DNA from: an uncultured Draconibacterium sp.
Lineage (GTDB): Bacteria; Bacteroidota; Bacteroidia; Bacteroidales; Prolixibacteraceae
Length of the DNA stretch: 64,000 nucleotides
Reading direction: 5' to 3'
Assembly: GCF_963675585.1 (NCBI RefSeq)
Contig: NZ_OY776414.1
Span: forward strand, 2,025,001-2,089,000
The number at the start of each line of letters is the position of its first letter. Position 1 is the first letter of the stretch. Of this stretch, positions 7,001-53,063 are shown in pieces. Position numbers and translations under genes: made by a program. The notes under the pieces are model-generated. The model ran no database searches. It saw nothing but the letters and a program-made list of their open reading frames with translations, and was not told the DNA's origin.

Positions 7001-7303
7001 TGATAAAACTTCGTCTAATACCTCGCTTACATTTGCATTTTCTTTTATTACCGAAACTTTGTCAAGTCCTTCTAATTCTTCTTTATTAAAGAAAAAGTAA
7101 AACTCACTTTTTTGTTCTATTTGTCTAAATACTTCAAGAATGCTGTTGTTTTTAAGTGAGATATCCAGTCGTGCATTTTGGGAATAAGTTGATGCACTTA
7201 CTGATATTAATCCAAACAGCAAGAGTGTAAATGTTAATTTCATCTTCTTCCAAATTTGTTTCAACGATGGATATTTACCCATCGTATCTAATAGATTTTT
7301 CAT
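4031..7303 (-). CDS. SusC/RagA-family TonB-dependent transporter with STN domain (module 1)
   Basis: This 1090-residue outer-membrane transporter imports glycan fragments with SusD using TonB energy. In order it has a signal segment (about 21-41, LTFTLLLFGLISVSAS), an STN domain (about 45-118, with FRQIEQKSEFYFFFNKEEL), a carboxypeptidase-regulatory-like domain (about 132-205, ITGKVTDAGGELLPGVTV), a plug with EEVVAIGYGTVKKADVTSAV and a barrel ending in YTFGVNVTF. The STN domain is the part that in FecA-like systems signals to a FecR anti-sigma factor, matching the upstream fecR and sigma genes. An antisense promoter-like box overlaps its start codon and a hairpin lies in its leader, both described separately. 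The first ATG is used; ATGs at residues 8 and 21 are possible but would shorten the usual leader. Confidence 0.96.
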   Translation of the reverse strand: MKNLLDTMGKYPSLKQIWKKMKLTFTLLLFGLISVSASTYSQNARLDISLKNNSILEVFRQIEQKSEFYFFFNKEELEGLDKVSVIKENANVSEVLDEVLSGTDLDYKVVDRYIIVRKSDDIFMNDKPQNSITGKVTDAGGELLPGVTVVVKGTTRGTVTDLNGNYSIPSVLPQEILIFSFVGMVSQEVLVGEQTRIDVTMAIDAIGIEEVVAIGYGTVKKADVTSAVSTVKSEDFIRGAVKDAAQLVQGKVAGLTVSLPTGDPTQGAQIMLRGVSSLNGGTAPLVLIDGIPGNLETIAPEDIESVDVLKDGSATAIYGTRGTNGVIIITTKSGANEMEPTIEYSGYVSLAQISKKLDFLNATELREKWNEGYSFTGANLQDYGSDTDWLDEITRDAVSHVHNLIFRGGNKNTNLTASLNYKNNQGIFMNSDNEKYTGRIDVNHSMFDNKLKANIGIIASEQKYWTGGDGYSFNNYVYRQAIIRNPTEPVMNEDGTWFERDVYFYDNPVAYIKESQGENRYRNMRFTGSLVYSPIANLDIKGLYARKGNSNIRGFYQTHNHVSTTKYGSDGYASRGTDDYIGNYAEISANYKKTIGDHRVTALAGYNYEDNVYEGFWVNNKYFPSDSYTYNNIGIGQGLPEGEAGIGSSKYSDKLIALFARVGYNYADKYLLMASLRREGSSRFGENHKWGYFPGVSAGWRINEESFMDGLAWVDNLKLRAGFGVTGINAGNNYQSLSSLNYDSYFLYNGNWLRELIPARNANPDLRWEKKEEFNIGLDFDLFGGRIGGALDYYNRKTKDALWNYDVPVPPYLYGSIMANVGVIQNKGFEALINVVPVQTQNFEWSANLTYSTNSNKLVSLSNDQFQTTNDFFYAGYTGEPIQIETHRLEIGDEIGNFYGLRSVDITEDGIWLIETPEGDIIPATESSTADRQVLGNGLPKHYMSWNNSFRYKNWELNMNLRGAFGYQILNFQRMFYENPTIGYNTLDSAYDKVYGKAVLSDVQRFVSYYVEDGDFIKLDNVTLSYNFNVKNSKVFKNLRVYASGMNLATITSYKGIDPEVNRIGLSPGNDDRDQYPTTRTYTFGVNVTF

Positions 7304-7310
7304 ACATTTG
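7303..7310 (+). promoter_or_regulatory. Candidate antisense promoter (-7 box) at the susC start, module 1
   Basis: TACATTTG on the plus strand matches the Bacteroidota -7 consensus TAnnTTTG and touches the susC start codon on the other strand. No clear TTTG -33 element is seen at the expected distance. The same arrangement (TAAATTTG) occurs at the second susC. An alternative reading is an A-rich translation-initiation context (CAAANNTATG on the susC sense strand). Confidence 0.45.
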
Positions 7311-7316
7311 ATTAGT

Positions 7317-7385
7317 TTAAATTACTACTGAGTTTTTTAAATTATTGACGGTAGTGATGTGCCAGCATCATTGCCGTTTTTTTTT
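7317..7385 (+). ncRNA. Candidate antisense RNA opposite the susC leader (module 1)
   Basis: Starting 7 bases after the TACATTTG box and ending in the T-tract at 7385 gives an RNA of about 69 nt, transcribed away from and complementary to the susC 5' leader. Bacteroides fragilis is known to encode DonS-type cis-antisense RNAs of similar size between anti-sigma and susC genes, repressing such loci. The position, size and terminator agree here, and the second module repeats the arrangement. There is no expression evidence, so the ends are predictions. Confidence 0.45.
7348..7385 (+). terminator. Rho-independent terminator on the antisense strand, module 1
   Basis: A 12-bp stem (ACGGTAGTGATG with CATCATTGCCGT) closes a six-base loop and runs into nine T residues on the plus strand. 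Two pairs are G-U on the plus-strand RNA but would be A-C mismatches on the minus-strand RNA. The hairpin is therefore built for transcription opposite to fecR and susC. Confidence 0.65.
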
Positions 7386-7422
7386 ATTGTGTTTAGTTTG
7401 AGTTAGTTTTTTATCATAGGCA

Positions 7423-46466: not shown

Positions 46467-47054
46467 ATGCAGGTTATTGGAGGAATTCCTGAAAATGTAT
46501 TGATAGACCGCATAAAACAGGGCGACCAAACTGCGTTCGAGCTCCTTTTTAAATTCTATTATCCGGGGCTTGTGGTTTTTGCTTCGCATTTTGGAATTGA
46601 TCAGGCAGACTCGGAGGAAATTGTTCAGGATTTTTTTGTACGTATCTGGCAGCACCGCCATAAAATTAATCAGTCGGATTCGTTAAAAGCCTATTTTTTC
46701 ACATCCATAAAAAACAAGTCGCTAAATGTTCTAAAGCAAAAAAAGCGAAATGATAAGTTAATAAAGAAGTTAATACTGGTTTCGGAAGAAAGTCATTCAT
46801 ACAATTACGATATTTTTATTGAGTCGGAATTACAAACGAAAATCAGAACCAGTTTTAACCTCATTCCTCCCCGCTCGAAGGAAGTATTTTTTTTAAGCCG
46901 GGTTACCGGGATATCAAATGATGAAATCGCAAAAAGACTGGATATTTCAAAACGAACAGTGGAAACACATATTTCCAATGCCCTAAAAATTCTAAAAACA
47001 GAGCTTAAAGAATTTCTTACGCTTTTAATTCTGATCGATATTCTATTAAAATAA
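46467..47054 (+). CDS. ECF RNA polymerase sigma-70 factor (module 2)
   Basis: This 195-residue ECF sigma factor has region 2 with FELLFKFYYPGLVVFASHFG and DSEEIVQDFFVRIWQHR, and region 4 with FNLIPPRSKEVFFLSRVTG, NDEIAKRLDISKRTVETHIS and an HTH. The start is the ATG at 46467, since the upstream codons lead into the regulatory gap. It activates the downstream fecR-susC-susD genes, by family analogy. It is a paralogue of the sigma factor at 8554-9102 but clearly diverged in sequence. Confidence 0.93.
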   Translation: MQVIGGIPENVLIDRIKQGDQTAFELLFKFYYPGLVVFASHFGIDQADSEEIVQDFFVRIWQHRHKINQSDSLKAYFFTSIKNKSLNVLKQKKRNDKLIKKLILVSEESHSYNYDIFIESELQTKIRTSFNLIPPRSKEVFFLSRVTGISNDEIAKRLDISKRTVETHISNALKILKTELKEFLTLLILIDILLK

Positions 47055-47215: not shown

Positions 47216-48193
47216 ATGAATGATAAAAACGCCAGTTCGAGAAAAATAAAAATTCAGAATGAAGACCAGCTTCACGCGAAGATAATTACCGATCCGGAAG
47301 AACAAAAACTGGAAGCAGCATTTCTGATTCAAAAAATCGATTCGGTTGATATCGAAAAGGGATTCAAAAATGTGAGCCGCCGTATTGAGAAAAAGGCGCG
47401 GTTTATACATAACATTAATATTATTTCAAGAGTTGCAGCAATTTTGCTCATTCCTGTACTATTTCTATCGGTTTGGTATAACGTAATAAACAAACAAAAC
47501 AATCAGATTGAAACAACTTACCACACCGTAAACTGCCCCGTTGGAATTAAAACACAGTTGTCGCTTCCCGACGGATCTTTAGTTTGGTTAAATTCGGGAA
47601 CAACAGTAAAATATCAACTCCCCTTTACTAACAAAACCCGCAAGATTGAAATGGATGGTGAAGCTTTTTTTGAGATAAAAAAAGATCGTATTCCTTTTAT
47701 TGTAAATACCGGCAATACGAAAGTTAAAGTATACGGAACCGAATTTAATGTAAAAGCATATAGCAGCGACAATCAGATTGAAGTGGCACTTAAAGAAGGA
47801 AGTATCGGGTTTACCGCCACAAATAATATGGATGAAAAAAGGTTGTCGCCAAACGATTTTCTCACCTTTAATAAAACGACCAATGCAGTTGAAACCATAA
47901 ACCAAAACATAAATAAATACATTGCCTGGCGTAACAACCAATTGGTTTTTGATGAAACTCCACTTTCAGAAATGGCTTTGATGCTGGAACGCTGGTACGG
48001 TATTCAGGTTGAAATAAAAGACGATGATCTTTTGAGATATAAGTTTACAACCACATTCGAAAACGAACCTCTTTTACAGGTTATAGAACTGCTGGAACTA
48101 AGTTCGCCCATAAAAATCAAATACATTCCAACTAAAATAGACGACCAATCGAATGTTATTAGCAAAGCAAAAATAGTAATCAATAAAAAATAA
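47216..48193 (+). CDS. FecR-family anti-sigma factor (module 2)
   Basis: This 325-residue protein has a charged cytoplasmic N-terminus (about 1-65), one membrane helix (about 73-92, VAAILLIPVLFLSVWYNVI), the FecR periplasmic domain (CPVGIKTQLSLPDGSLVWLN, MDGEAFFEIKK, VYGTEFNVKAYSSDN) and a C-terminal DUF4974-type region (LSEMALMLERWYGIQVEIKD). It should restrain the sigma factor encoded 161 bases upstream until the SusC STN domain signals. The layout is the same as in module 1. Confidence 0.94.
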   Translation: MNDKNASSRKIKIQNEDQLHAKIITDPEEQKLEAAFLIQKIDSVDIEKGFKNVSRRIEKKARFIHNINIISRVAAILLIPVLFLSVWYNVINKQNNQIETTYHTVNCPVGIKTQLSLPDGSLVWLNSGTTVKYQLPFTNKTRKIEMDGEAFFEIKKDRIPFIVNTGNTKVKVYGTEFNVKAYSSDNQIEVALKEGSIGFTATNNMDEKRLSPNDFLTFNKTTNAVETINQNINKYIAWRNNQLVFDETPLSEMALMLERWYGIQVEIKDDDLLRYKFTTTFENEPLLQVIELLELSSPIKIKYIPTKIDDQSNVISKAKIVINKK

Positions 48194-48211: not shown

Positions 48212-48241
48212 AAAAAAGGGAAGGTGCAGCAACACCCTCCC
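48212..48241 (-). terminator. Rho-independent terminator on the antisense strand, module 2
   Basis: On the minus strand GGGAGGGTG pairs with CACCTTCCC around the loop TTGCTG and is followed by six T residues. One pair is G-U on the minus-strand RNA but an A-C mismatch on the plus-strand RNA. The hairpin therefore favours transcription opposite to fecR and susC, as in module 1. Confidence 0.65.
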
Positions 48242-48274
48242 CAATAACAACTAAATAATTTTAGTCATTTACAA
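48212..48274 (-). ncRNA. Candidate antisense RNA opposite the susC leader (module 2)
   Basis: An RNA starting 7 bases after the TAAATTTG box and ending in the T-tract would be about 63 nt and complementary to the leader of the second susC. Size, position and terminator design match the candidate at 7317-7385 and the known DonS-type antisense RNAs of Bacteroides fragilis. The stem sequences differ, so each would act on its own susC in cis. The ends are predictions. Confidence 0.45.
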
Positions 48275-48280
48275 AACGAT

Positions 48281-48288
48281 CAAATTTA
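48281..48288 (-). promoter_or_regulatory. Candidate antisense promoter (-7 box) at the susC start, module 2
   Basis: TAAATTTG on the minus strand matches TAnnTTTG and overlaps the first base of the susC ATG. No clear -33 element is visible upstream. It has the same offset from the start codon as the box at 7303-7310. Confidence 0.45.
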
Positions 48289-51200
48289 TGAAAAAAAACT
48301 TTGAAATTTTGTGTCTCTACAGGCGACACAGAAAAAAACTTATGATTATGCGTAATGCACTTTTAATTGTGTTGATTAGCAGTTTTCAGATTTTTGCGAA
48401 CAACAGCTATTCACAAACAAAAAAACTAAATCTGAACCTCCGCGATGTAACGATTAAGGAAGTTCTGAATGAAATTGAAAACCAAAGTGAATTCTATTTT
48501 TTGTACAACAGCGAATTAATTGATGTTTCAAAAAATGTAAACATTTCGGTTGAAGACAGAAAAATTGAAGATGTACTTGCCAGCTTGTTTCCGGGAGACG
48601 AGGTAAATGTGTTGGTTAAAGACAGACACATTATTCTAACCCCAGGTTACGAATCCACCGATCAGCAAAAATCGATTAGCGGGAAAGTAACCAGCCTCGA
48701 TGGTTTTCCGCTACCGGGAGTTACCATTTTAATAAAAGGAACTACCACCGGGACCGTTACTCAGGCCGACGGAACTTTCAGTGTTGATAATATTGACAGT
48801 GGAAGTACGCTGGTATTTTCATTTATCGGTATGAAAAGCCAGGAAGTGGTGGTAGGAAACCAAAGCACTTTAAATATAAGCATGGAAGAAGAAGCCATTG
48901 GTTTGGAAGAAGTAGTTGCCATTGGTTACGGTACGGTAAAAAAGAGAGAACTTACCGGGTCGGTTGCTTCAGTTAAAGCCGACGATTTTAACGAAGTAGC
49001 GTCATCGGATGCCATGCAACTGATACAAGGTAAGGTAGCCGGTTTAAGTATTACCCGCACCAATGGTGGCGATCCAACAAAAGGTTTTGAGATACGTTTA
49101 CGCGGATCATCAAGTATCAGTGCCAGCCAGGAACCACTTGTTGTGGTGGATGGTATTCCGGGCGGAAACCTGAATTCCATTGCTCCAGAAGATATTGAAT
49201 CGATGGATATTCTTAAGGACGGTTCGGCGGCTGCAATTTATGGAACACGCGGTACTAACGGTGTTATTCTGGTAACCACAAAAAGAGGAAAACAAGGCAG
49301 TATGCAAGTTGAATTTTCATCGAAATTTACTACACAAAGTATTTTGAAAACGGTTGAGGTTTTAAATGCCGATGAATACCGTACGATGAAAACAAAATTA
49401 TCTTCTACTCATCCTGAAGTTGCAGCCGGAATGGTAGATTATGGCTACGATACAGATTGGTTTGACGAAATTACACGTACCCCGTTTAGTCATGTTCAGC
49501 ACTTGTCGCTAAGTGGTGGCATGAATAAAACCACATACCGTTTATCCATGTATTATACCGATCAGGAAGGTGTTATGCTTAATTCGAGTATGGAAGAATA
49601 CCGGGCAAATTTAAACCTTAGGCAAATGGCTTTGAATGATAAACTTCAGTTTAGCGTTCAGCTGGGATTGTCTGATCGTGCAGAAAATCCGGTTAATTAC
49701 GATGCTTTCCGCCAGGCCATTAAAAGAAATCCTACCGAACCCGTTTATAACGAAGACGGTAGTTTATTCGAAATTGACGGCTGGCAATATGAAAATCCTG
49801 TAGGTCTTCTTCAGGAAAGATTCCGCGATGATAGTTCATCTCATCTGTTTGCCAATTTAGGAACTGATTTATTTATTACCGATTGGTTAAAAGCCGGTGT
49901 TGTTGCCGGTATTCAAAAATACCGCTCGTTAAACGGTTATTACGAACCCAGTTACGCACATACACAGGAAGTAGCCGGCACATCAGGTAGCGCAAGTCGT
50001 GTGGCCTCAGCAACCGATACCAAAACGCTTGAAACAACCATCGATTTTAACAAATCAATCAATAAACATACGATAAGTGCCACCGCAGGTTATTCGTTTC
50101 AGGAGTTTGTGAATGAAGGTTTTGAGGCTGAAAACACAAATTTCATTTCGGATGATTTGTTGTACAATAACTTGGGCTCGGGTACAAAATTACGCAGTGG
50201 CGATGCCGACATGAGTTCGTATAAAACTCAAAACCGTTTGGTTGGTTTCTTTGCCCGTGCATCGTACAATTACGAGGGAAAATATTTTGTATCGGCAAGT
50301 GTACGCCGCGAAGGTTCTTCAAAATTTGGAGCCAATAATAAATGGGGCACATTCCCTGCAGTTTCTGCAGGTTGGGACCTTACCAAAGAAAGCTTCCTGA
50401 GTGATTCAAACTTCGATCTCTTAAAAGTTCGTGCGGGTTATGGTGTAACCGGTAACCAGGGAATCGATCCTTACCTTTCTTTATCACGAATGGCTGAATC
50501 GGGCTATTTCTTCTACAATGGTAGTTTTATTCCGGGTTACGGACCAGACAGCAATCCAAATCCAAACTTAAAATGGGAAACCAAACACGAATATAACTTC
50601 GGTTTAGACTGGTCTTTAAACCAGGGACGTATTGGTGGTACTGTTGATTATTACGTGCGAGACACCAAAGATTTACTTCATTTGTATGACGTACCGGTTC
50701 CTCCAAACCTTTACAGTGAAACAATGGCAAACGTGGGATCAATGCGTAATTCGGGTATCGAATTTACAATCAGTGCCATTCCTGTTCAGACATCTGATTT
50801 CCAATGGAATATTGATTTTAATGCCGATTTCAGAAAAAATAAATTGTTATCGCTGTCAAACGACTATTATTCGTTGGAATATCGTAACGTAGGTGAAATA
50901 GGATCGCCGGGTGTTTCGGCGTGGACACACCGTTATTACGAAGGTGGATCAATCGGAAACATTCATGGGTTTGTGTATGAAGGATTAACCGAAGACGGGA
51001 AATGGATTTTTAAAGATACCGATGGAGTTGAAGGAATTACAGTAGAAGACCGTACTGACATTGGAAATGGTATTCCTGATTTTTATGCAGGTTTAACCAA
51101 CTCGTTCCGTTACAAAAACTGGGATATGTCAATTATGTTCCGCGGAATGTTTGGCCACCAAATTATTAACCACAAACGTATTTTCTACGAAAACCCAATT

Positions 51201-51518
51201 ATGCTGCCCTTAAACATTATGAAATCGGCAATGGACTCACAGATTTGGGATACACAAAATTTCTCGGATTACTATGTTGAAAATGGCGATTTTGTAAAAT
51301 TGGATAACCTTACATTTGGATACAACATCCCATTGAAAAGCACAAAATGGTTAAAATCAGGCAGAGTATTCTTTACCGGCACAAATTTACTTTGTATAAC
51401 CGGCTACGAAGGAATTGATCCGGAAGGTTCTATTGGCGGACTGACTCCGGGAGTTGATTCCAGAGGAGACTACCCAAGTACGCGAACTTATACTTTTGGT
51501 TTTAACATTAAATTTTAA
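48288..51518 (+). CDS. SusC/RagA-family TonB-dependent transporter with STN domain (module 2)
   Basis: This 1076-residue transporter has a signal segment (about 22-42, RNALLIVLISSFQIF), an STN domain (about 48-118, VLNEIENQSEFYFLYNSEL), a carboxypeptidase-regulatory-like domain (about 130-200, ISGKVTSLDGFPLPGVTI), a plug with LEEVVAIGYGTVKKRELTG, and a barrel ending PSTRTYTFGFNIKF. It is clearly paralogous to the transporter at 4031-7303 (shared NPTEPVYNEDGSLFE-type, NKWGTFPAVSAGW and DVPVPP segments). It would import a pectic oligosaccharide, with specificity different from module 1 given the divergence of both SusC and SusD. Confidence 0.96.
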   Translation: MKKNFEILCLYRRHRKKLMIMRNALLIVLISSFQIFANNSYSQTKKLNLNLRDVTIKEVLNEIENQSEFYFLYNSELIDVSKNVNISVEDRKIEDVLASLFPGDEVNVLVKDRHIILTPGYESTDQQKSISGKVTSLDGFPLPGVTILIKGTTTGTVTQADGTFSVDNIDSGSTLVFSFIGMKSQEVVVGNQSTLNISMEEEAIGLEEVVAIGYGTVKKRELTGSVASVKADDFNEVASSDAMQLIQGKVAGLSITRTNGGDPTKGFEIRLRGSSSISASQEPLVVVDGIPGGNLNSIAPEDIESMDILKDGSAAAIYGTRGTNGVILVTTKRGKQGSMQVEFSSKFTTQSILKTVEVLNADEYRTMKTKLSSTHPEVAAGMVDYGYDTDWFDEITRTPFSHVQHLSLSGGMNKTTYRLSMYYTDQEGVMLNSSMEEYRANLNLRQMALNDKLQFSVQLGLSDRAENPVNYDAFRQAIKRNPTEPVYNEDGSLFEIDGWQYENPVGLLQERFRDDSSSHLFANLGTDLFITDWLKAGVVAGIQKYRSLNGYYEPSYAHTQEVAGTSGSASRVASATDTKTLETTIDFNKSINKHTISATAGYSFQEFVNEGFEAENTNFISDDLLYNNLGSGTKLRSGDADMSSYKTQNRLVGFFARASYNYEGKYFVSASVRREGSSKFGANNKWGTFPAVSAGWDLTKESFLSDSNFDLLKVRAGYGVTGNQGIDPYLSLSRMAESGYFFYNGSFIPGYGPDSNPNPNLKWETKHEYNFGLDWSLNQGRIGGTVDYYVRDTKDLLHLYDVPVPPNLYSETMANVGSMRNSGIEFTISAIPVQTSDFQWNIDFNADFRKNKLLSLSNDYYSLEYRNVGEIGSPGVSAWTHRYYEGGSIGNIHGFVYEGLTEDGKWIFKDTDGVEGITVEDRTDIGNGIPDFYAGLTNSFRYKNWDMSIMFRGMFGHQIINHKRIFYENPIMLPLNIMKSAMDSQIWDTQNFSDYYVENGDFVKLDNLTFGYNIPLKSTKWLKSGRVFFTGTNLLCITGYEGIDPEGSIGGLTPGVDSRGDYPSTRTYTFGFNIKF

Positions 51519-51530
51519 AAAACACGGATC

Positions 51531-53063
51531 ATGAAAAAATTATTAATATTATTTACGCTATTCGGTTTCTGGTCGTGTACGAATCTTGACGAGGAAGTTT
51601 ACGATACCATTGTTAACGAAAATTTTTATCAAACAGAGAAACAGGTTCTGGCAGCAGCCGGCCCTGCATACAACGAACTCAGAGGCTATGTTCAGGTTGG
51701 GGCGCTTTGGGGAATCAATAGTTTATCAACCGATGAAGCCGTTTTGCCAACACGTGGAATTCACTGGGACAATGGTGGAATTTACCGACGTTTAGCTTTG
51801 CACTCGTGGACCTCGGAAGAAGGTTACTTTAACGATTCGTGGAAATTTATCTACAATACCGCTTCCAATTGTAACCGTATGTTATACCAGTTCGATTTAA
51901 TTGAAGACAAAAGCGATGCACTTATAAGCATAATGAACGAGATGAAAGCCGTTCGTGCCTTTGCCTATTTTGTTGGATTAGACGATTTTGGAAACATTCC
52001 TATTGTTGAAAGTTTTGATGTTCCTGAAGGTTTTGCTCCGGCAAACAGCAGCCGTCAAGAGGTATTTGAATTTGTAAAAAATGATTTGGAAGGCAGCTTG
52101 AACGTGTTAAGTAAAAGCACCGATATGACTACTTACGGAAGAATGCATTATTATGCGGCGCAGTCCTTGTTGGCAAAGCTCTATTTAAATGCCGAAGTAT
52201 ATACAGGACAGGCAATGAACGACCAATGTATAGCAGCCTGTGATGCCATTATCAACTCAGAAGAATATTCGTTATCATCTGATTATTTCTCAAATTTTGC
52301 CATTAAAAATGAAGGTTCATCCGAGAATATTTTTGTAATCCCGTTCGACGACACGTATACAAAGTCATGGGGATATATGAATCAGTTTCAATACTGGACG
52401 CTACATTTTACGGCCAATAAAACCTATGGAATGGAAGCAGGTGGCTGGAATGGTTTCTGTGCCATGCCGTCGTTTTACAGATCGTATGACGAAACCGATT
52501 TAAGAAGAAATATTTGGGTGGTTGGCCCTCAATATTCGAAAACAGGTGAAGTAGTTTACTGCAACCAGGAATTGGCAGGTAAGCCTCTGTCCTATTCAAT
52601 TGATTTAACATCGTTGGAAGGTTCGTTTGAAGACGAAGGTGCCAGACTTGCCAAATACGATTATACAGGTGCAAAGAACTGGACAGTTTCGTGCGATTTT
52701 GCCGTAATCAGATATGCTGACATTCTTCTCATGAAAGCCGAAGCTTTGATGCGTAAAAATGGTGGTGTTGCGACTGCCGATGCGGTTGATTTGGTTAACC
52801 AGGTACGAAGTCGTGCCTTTGAAGATACCGCCGATAAACTATACACCACTTCAACATTAACAATGGAAGCTTTATTGGCGGAACGTGGTTGGGAATTTGC
52901 AGGTGAAGGTTGGAGACGTAACGATCAAATTCGTTTTGGCAATTTCACCAAAGGTAGATGGACTTTCCAGGAAAGTGATTCTCCGGAATTCAGAAACTTA
53001 TATCCGATTCCACAAAAACAAATCAATGCCAATCCAAACCTTGTTCAGAATACAGGTTATTAG
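51531..53063 (+). CDS. SusD/RagB-family outer-membrane glycan-binding lipoprotein (module 2)
   Basis: This 510-residue protein starts with a short lipoprotein signal ending FGFWSC (Cys16) and the mature TNLDEEVYDTIVNENFY. SusD helices follow (MKAVRAFAYFVGLDDFGNIP, YAAQSLLAKLYLNAEVY, RYADILLMKAEALMRKNGG), with the usual C-terminal ERGWEFAGEGWRRNDQIRFG and LYPIPQKQINANPNLVQNTGY. It is the surface partner of the SusC encoded 12 bases upstream. It ends the plus-strand operon, just before a strong terminator. Confidence 0.95.
   Translation: MKKLLILFTLFGFWSCTNLDEEVYDTIVNENFYQTEKQVLAAAGPAYNELRGYVQVGALWGINSLSTDEAVLPTRGIHWDNGGIYRRLALHSWTSEEGYFNDSWKFIYNTASNCNRMLYQFDLIEDKSDALISIMNEMKAVRAFAYFVGLDDFGNIPIVESFDVPEGFAPANSSRQEVFEFVKNDLEGSLNVLSKSTDMTTYGRMHYYAAQSLLAKLYLNAEVYTGQAMNDQCIAACDAIINSEEYSLSSDYFSNFAIKNEGSSENIFVIPFDDTYTKSWGYMNQFQYWTLHFTANKTYGMEAGGWNGFCAMPSFYRSYDETDLRRNIWVVGPQYSKTGEVVYCNQELAGKPLSYSIDLTSLEGSFEDEGARLAKYDYTGAKNWTVSCDFAVIRYADILLMKAEALMRKNGGVATADAVDLVNQVRSRAFEDTADKLYTTSTLTMEALLAERGWEFAGEGWRRNDQIRFGNFTKGRWTFQESDSPEFRNLYPIPQKQINANPNLVQNTGY

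Follow-up and report, generated by a model that had tools for sequence, protein, structure and literature searches.

A putative cis-antisense RNA gene of the DonS kind between fecR and susC in Draconibacterium and other genera

The gap between fecR and susC in a SusC/SusD module of an uncultured Draconibacterium sp. very probably holds, on the opposite strand, a gene for a cis-antisense small RNA of the DonS kind, about 65 nt long and predicted from the sequence to act on the leader of its own susC. The feature is real and under selection: a box of the promoter consensus, a terminator-type hairpin, a selected strand, a link to FecR and a spread over other genomes are all established. The stretch analysed (the window) is 64,000 nucleotides long (contig NZ_OY776414.1, positions 2,025,001 to 2,089,000), and the genome that bears it measures 6.03 Mb and belongs to the class Bacteroidia, family Prolixibacteraceae. 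DonS is described as a member of a cis-antisense RNA family, 78-128 nt in length, that lies divergent to susC homologues and reduces their expression (PMC7366714).

The module concerned, the second in the window, runs in one direction, with the genes for an ECF sigma factor, FecR, SusC and SusD assigned by Pfam matches. The ECF sigma factor gene (46467..47054, plus strand) matches Sigma70_r2, Sigma70_r4_2 and Sigma70_ECF, and the FecR-type anti-sigma gene that follows it (47216..48193, plus strand) matches FecR and FecR_C. Then comes susC (48288..51518, plus strand), a TonB-dependent receptor gene with matches to Plug, CarbopepD_reg_2, the TonB barrel and TIGR04056 and with an STN match below the Pfam cut-off, whose product is 98% identical to the SusC of D. 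aestuarii; susD (51531..53063, plus strand; SusD_RagB, SusD-like_3) comes last. The gap between fecR and susC is 94 bases long and houses the whole minus-strand set of box, hairpin and T6 tract. At the gathering score, none of 4227 Rfam families matched in the window.

The predicted -7 promoter box of the antisense RNA (48281..48288, minus strand) agrees with the consensus TAnnTTTG and overlaps the A of the susC ATG: the sense strand reads CAAATTTATG, from the C at 48281 to the A of the start codon at 48288, and the minus strand, from 48288 to 48281, reads TAAATTTG. On that strand a hairpin and a run of six T occupy the interval 39-69 bases past the box. The hairpin, GGGAGGGTG-TTGCTG-CACCTTCCC (48241-48218), has 9 pairs, one of them G.U, and the fold gives 11; as the predicted intrinsic terminator of the antisense RNA (48217..48242, minus strand; locus L057) it scores -18.7 kcal/mol in the antisense against -12.1 in the sense direction, and the T6 tract (TTTTTT) lies at 48212..48217 on the minus strand. 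With its start set about 5 nt past the box, as we assume, the predicted RNA would cover about 65 nt (48212..48275, minus strand), for which the folding energy is -25.1 kcal/mol (z -5.6). The antisense strand of the gap also reaches -25.1 kcal/mol (z -5.0), with none of 200 shuffles as good, and the sense strand folds more weakly (-15.3 kcal/mol, z -4.1).

The first-pass annotation had placed an antisense box on the susC ATG, together with a 9-bp hairpin and six T (48281-48288; 48241-48212), and all of these elements are there. Its claim of a like arrangement in module 1 of the window holds too. There the predicted antisense -7 box TACATTTG (7303..7310, plus strand) overlaps the susC ATG at the same offset as in module 2, and an antisense terminator hairpin (7347-7378) with its T tract follows (7347..7385 in all, plus strand; -19.7 antisense against -8.8 sense; L041). 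The hairpin sequences of the two modules differ and their layout is equal.

Another element, GC[CTG][AT]ATGA, was seen at 7414-7422 on the minus strand, directly past the fecR stop of module 1, and has copies in further leaders of the same genome (for example L005, L006, L033, L039, L043 and L047). Among own leaders in which the fecR stop lies at least 20 bases from the antisense terminator, 10/19 carry it in that interval (0.2% when shuffled), as do 5/78 leaders of other genomes (0.5% when shuffled). The string ATG-X-stop, that is, a start, one codon and a stop, is present in 10/19 own and 12/78 other leaders, with 8% in shuffled sequence. These strings may be a minimal upstream reading frame, or a piece of the susC sense promoter.

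The genome has 56 TIGR04056 matches, which yielded 55 scorable susC genes, split by FecR_C matches into 24 FecR-linked genes and 31 others; L056, a broken susC, was omitted from the 55, and L031 was scored as L057. Starts were taken as the first ATG of the open frame, except at L009, where the start was placed by hand, and an antisense terminator was called strong at -12 kcal/mol or better within 220 bases. An exact TAnnTTTG sits on the start codon of 16 of the 24 FecR-linked genes, L009 being one of them, and of none of the 31 others (Fisher p 2.5e-8). Strong antisense terminators are equally one-sided, with 19/24 against 0/31 (Fisher p 1.5e-10), and relaxing the threshold to -6 gives 20/24 and 6/31. 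Dinucleotide shuffles of the 24 leaders gave terminators in 5/480 and boxes in 11/480 cases. Our results show that the recurrence is beyond chance, as the annotation had supposed, and answer its caveat that susC genes without FecR might have the pattern equally often: in this genome they have neither box nor strong terminator.

DonS-type RNAs belong to PULs that are controlled by an ECF sigma factor and its anti-sigma factor. The FecR linkage of the terminators agrees with this, the sigma gene itself being confirmed at the two window modules and the set of 24 loci being defined by FecR.

Five more FecR-linked genes have a box with one mismatch at the usual offset (TTTA at L019, L020, L039 and L054, TTCG at L047), and at L001 and L007 a hairpin is present with a T run that begins 3-4 bases late, which leaves them below the cut-off. 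Neither box nor terminator was found at three of the 24, L010, L027 and L034; of these, L010 is interrupted by a stop and uncertain in its start, and its alternative ATG is likewise featureless. A control list of 90 gene starts, drawn from the same stretches of DNA, included L056 and also L009 with a miscalled start, and these gave the sole box (L056) and the sole strong terminator (L009) of the list. The 88 true controls held no box and no strong terminator. We infer that L056 marks where a FecR-linked susC gene, now broken, begins.

FecR-linked susC genes are interrupted or truncated at three loci of the genome, L010, L039 and L056, and at the last of these a box, CAAATCTATG, is retained at the apparent lost start along with a weak antisense hairpin (-8.1). 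The genome-wide count of the bare pattern CAAANNTATGAA was set aside as evidence, being uninformative by itself: 54 matches against 53 for the reversed control, that is, no enrichment. The box is non-random in its placing only.

For the selected strand, the difference in folding energy between the two strands was dropped as proof, since 46 ordinary terminators from the same scan favour their own strand too (35 more stable, 5 less). Because picking by energy favours the picked strand, we adopted a strand-neutral wobble count, in which Watson-Crick pairs are scored and G.U and A.C are treated alike. In the 24 own FecR-linked leaders (repeat in 21), G.U pairs number 32 on the antisense side and 2 on the sense side (p 7e-8); the 31 non-FecR susC (repeat in 18) have 12 and 19, and 99 leaders of other genomes, D. 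aestuarii omitted (repeat in 81), have 96 and 25 (p 5e-11). This demonstrates that the wobble pairs are maintained for the benefit of the antisense RNA, and what had been noticed in the window, a wobble that stabilises the antisense RNA only, turns out to be general. The same count weighs against a reading in which the hairpin would act within the susC mRNA itself, as a leader attenuator or a ribosome-access element, rather than as an antisense terminator. Every antisense hairpin has its mirror image in the leader of the sense transcript, and the sense strand of the window gap does beat its own shuffles; yet the T tract is found on the antisense side only, and sense terminators (-11 or better) occur in just 2 of the 114 gaps of at least 60 bases in relatives. 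We consider a sense-leader function most unlikely.

As genes for antisense RNAs, which is the reading that we prefer, the 19 own loci would yield transcripts of 65-126 nt, the window's being 65 nt, and 36 loci of other genomes a median of 88 nt (67-160), in each case with the start assumed (5 bases past the box in the own set). On that assumed start the window's RNA falls below the 78-128 nt stated for the DonS family. The median common run among the 19 predicted RNAs is 7 bases (6 when shuffled) and the maximum 15; stems differ from locus to locus and spacer length varies. With a median common run of 7 bases, each RNA should therefore act on its own leader, and the earlier suggestion of cis-specific control fits these predicted sequences.

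An apical motif, UGU-n3-5-GCA or UGC-n3-5-ACA (in DNA, TGT/GCA or TGC/ACA), recurs in 13/19 of the own antisense terminator hairpins, for example that of the window at 48217-48242, and in 0/46 ordinary terminators. Since it was first spotted in the own set, only the other genomes offer an independent test, and there it is present in 17/59 hairpins (p 2e-5, with own-genome terminators as the control). This motif is left unexplained if the terminator is an insulator that blocks stray antisense transcription from susC ahead of fecR and the sigma gene, with no regulatory RNA involved, and so is the fixed position of a promoter box on the start codon. An insulator would be strand-specific likewise, and chance promoters are described as able to drive antisense transcription in low G+C genomes (PMC7366714). 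We regard this explanation as unlikely.

The antisense RNA gene that we favour would have its promoter in the box. TAnnTTTG is the -7 consensus of Sigma-ABfr, the main sigma factor of Bacteroidota (PMC7366714), and the predicted promoter has it in exact form in the window and at the FecR-linked genes counted above. Sigma-ABfr promoters thus share the -7 box with the present loci, but their TTTG at -33 was not found here: no TTTG or TTG recurs near -33 in a set of 20 own loci that have TTT[GA] in the box. According to the same source (PMC7366714), no -33 element could be recognised in Flavobacterium johnsoniae either.

From other genomes we scored 151 gaps between FecR and the next gene, a non-random sample composed of the best FecR_C matches and hand-picked loci; genomes with any FecR_C match number 18/60 in the class and 18/26 in the order. 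At L121, L147, L175 and L226 the next gene could not be scored, L277 is a duplicate of L201, and L116, L134 and L145 are repeats of the own genome. The near relative D. aestuarii (G060), which supplies 15 of the 114 long gaps and 11 of their 70 terminators, does not enter the sets of 99, 78, 59 and 77 loci. Among the 114 gaps of at least 60 bases, 70 have an antisense terminator, 59 a TTT[GA] box and 48 both, with the box on the start codon, and the 44 gaps with no scored terminator count against our reading. The 37 gaps shorter than 60 bases, where little room is available, hold no antisense terminator, no box and one sense terminator.

In other genomes the first 45 bases from the start contain an exact TAnnTTTG at 36/59 loci with a terminator and at 9/77 loci without one (p 1e-9; 5.7% in shuffles); the 23/59 terminator loci with no exact box in that range again count against the antisense RNA gene. 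This co-occurrence is relevant to an alternative raised in the first-pass annotation, namely that CAAANNTATG merely serves translation initiation at susC; the hairpin would then have no connection with it. A T at -1 and A-rich sequence at about -12 to -14 do occur in non-FecR susC as well, and the bare pattern lacks genome-wide enrichment. Against this, the box is absent from the 31 other susC and from the 88 other starts, the single box among the 90 control starts being that of L056, and elsewhere it tracks the terminator. Displacement of the exact box by 1-6 bases from its usual place at 8/36 terminator loci argues in the same direction; the point is weak because 4 of these 8 keep TTTA in place and 3/9 boxes at loci without terminator are shifted too. 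A translation-initiation context is in our view very unlikely.

The layout of box and antisense terminator recurs in other genera, which fits the annotation's notion of a conserved design. Both are present in at least one gap of D. aestuarii, Mangrovibacterium, Sunxiuqinia, Maribellus and Prolixibacteraceae JC049, the first four of which we take to belong to the same family as the last, and also in Chitinophaga hostae, Dyadobacter soli, Sphingobacterium B16 and Maribacter luteus. Mucilaginibacter E4BP6 has terminators in 2/3 gaps, with the box shifted one base from its usual place, and Parapedobacter has a terminator in 1/2 gaps, with no box at the usual place. The class genomes G031 (5 gaps of at least 60 bases), G014 (2), G047 (2) and G058 (1) showed neither feature in these gaps, and at every locus of G001, G013 and G046 the gap is shorter than 60 bases. 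In the Mangrovibacterium orthologue, whose SusC is 76% identical, box, hairpin and T tract are kept with a different stem sequence, the hairpin (-10.7) being slightly short of the cut-offs; in that of Sunxiuqinia one can see a box and, following a run of A, an inverted repeat, and the scan scored no terminator. Outside all counts, L202 of Maribacter luteus has a box and a terminator (-14.4), and of two Alistipes muris loci L203 has a terminator (-20.2) and no box, and L191 neither.

At two loci of Tannerella MAGs, L110 (near 1238) and L112 (near 1931), strong antisense terminators lie upstream of susC at a distance of about 120 bases from its start, with no TAnnTTTG on the start codon. The geometry is therefore not universal, and in the Tannerella group the antisense promoter may be located elsewhere.

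From the example of DonS in Bacteroides fragilis, we infer antisense transcription, its start site, and repression together with its mechanism. RNA polymerase carrying the main sigma factor would initiate at the TAnnTTTG box on the susC start codon, transcribe the susC leader backwards and halt at the intrinsic terminator close past fecR, giving an RNA whose complement is the stretch of the susC mRNA leader between about -13 and about -76. In the absence of the glycan susC would most likely be held low, through pairing with the leader at the ribosome-loading site, through convergent transcription, or through both. Once the ECF sigma factor is released by FecR, the sense transcript would be sufficient to overrun the antisense RNA.

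DonS reduces the expression of its PUL, and RNAs of DonS orientation are reported on northern blots in Bacteroides (PMC7366714, PMC10994844, PMC11697453). For B. thetaiotaomicron, ten more RNAs of DonS-like orientation are described, five of them validated by northern blot, and 52% of the cis-antisense RNA candidates carry a main-sigma promoter (PMC7366714); another account raises the number of DonS-like RNAs to 32, with correlations both negative and positive (PMC10994844). Since the correlation with the PUL is positive for some of the B. thetaiotaomicron RNAs, repression may not apply to all. Antisense RNAs are also reported for 15 B. fragilis PULs in a paper whose own list is a flavobacterial starting point (PMC9723704), and a 2025 paper states that DonS represses its PUL and gives the mechanism as unknown (PMC11697453).

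The Bacteroides PUL antisense RNAs of Cao et al. 2016, as described in PMC7366714, PMC10994844 and PMC9723704, are likewise short, antisense, divergent to a PUL susC and one per locus, and the predicted box and terminator would give just such a cis-antisense RNA divergent to a susC homologue. The present case differs in lying in Draconibacterium and other genera, in a predicted RNA that is somewhat shorter, and in a predicted promoter box that overlaps the susC start codon, DonS being set beside it by its published description rather than through a Bacteroides genome. FopS of B. thetaiotaomicron is likewise among the small RNAs of a paper on PUL regulation, where 4/14 are antisense (PMC11697453); by its description its members are paralogues of one another, in contrast to the 19 predicted RNAs, which have little sequence in common. 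The kind of gene is already known from PUL antisense RNAs of the DonS class. Three points appear to be new, in that we did not find them in the openly accessible literature (titles and abstract openings, with subscription journals mostly outside): such RNAs in genera other than Bacteroides, the placing of their promoter box on the susC start codon and, for the same mostly non-subscription literature, the recurrent terminator-loop motif.

A wider reading, which we hold tentatively and find slightly more doubtful than probable, is that the ECF sigma/FecR/SusC module has long included the antisense RNA gene as a fixed component across much of Bacteroidia, with its promoter on the susC start codon and an apical motif that either binds a protein or initiates pairing with the complementary loop of the leader; the modules would thus each have a sequence-private brake built on one plan. 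Units of the DonS kind at 19 of 24 FecR-linked susC genes of a Draconibacterium and in other genera would change the status of these RNAs from a Bacteroides feature to a general part of FecR-linked susC modules, and they would provide a comparative set in which the promoter, the selected strand and the loop motif are directly readable and testable. With this breadth, the tie to FecR and the common plan, the mechanism would become testable.
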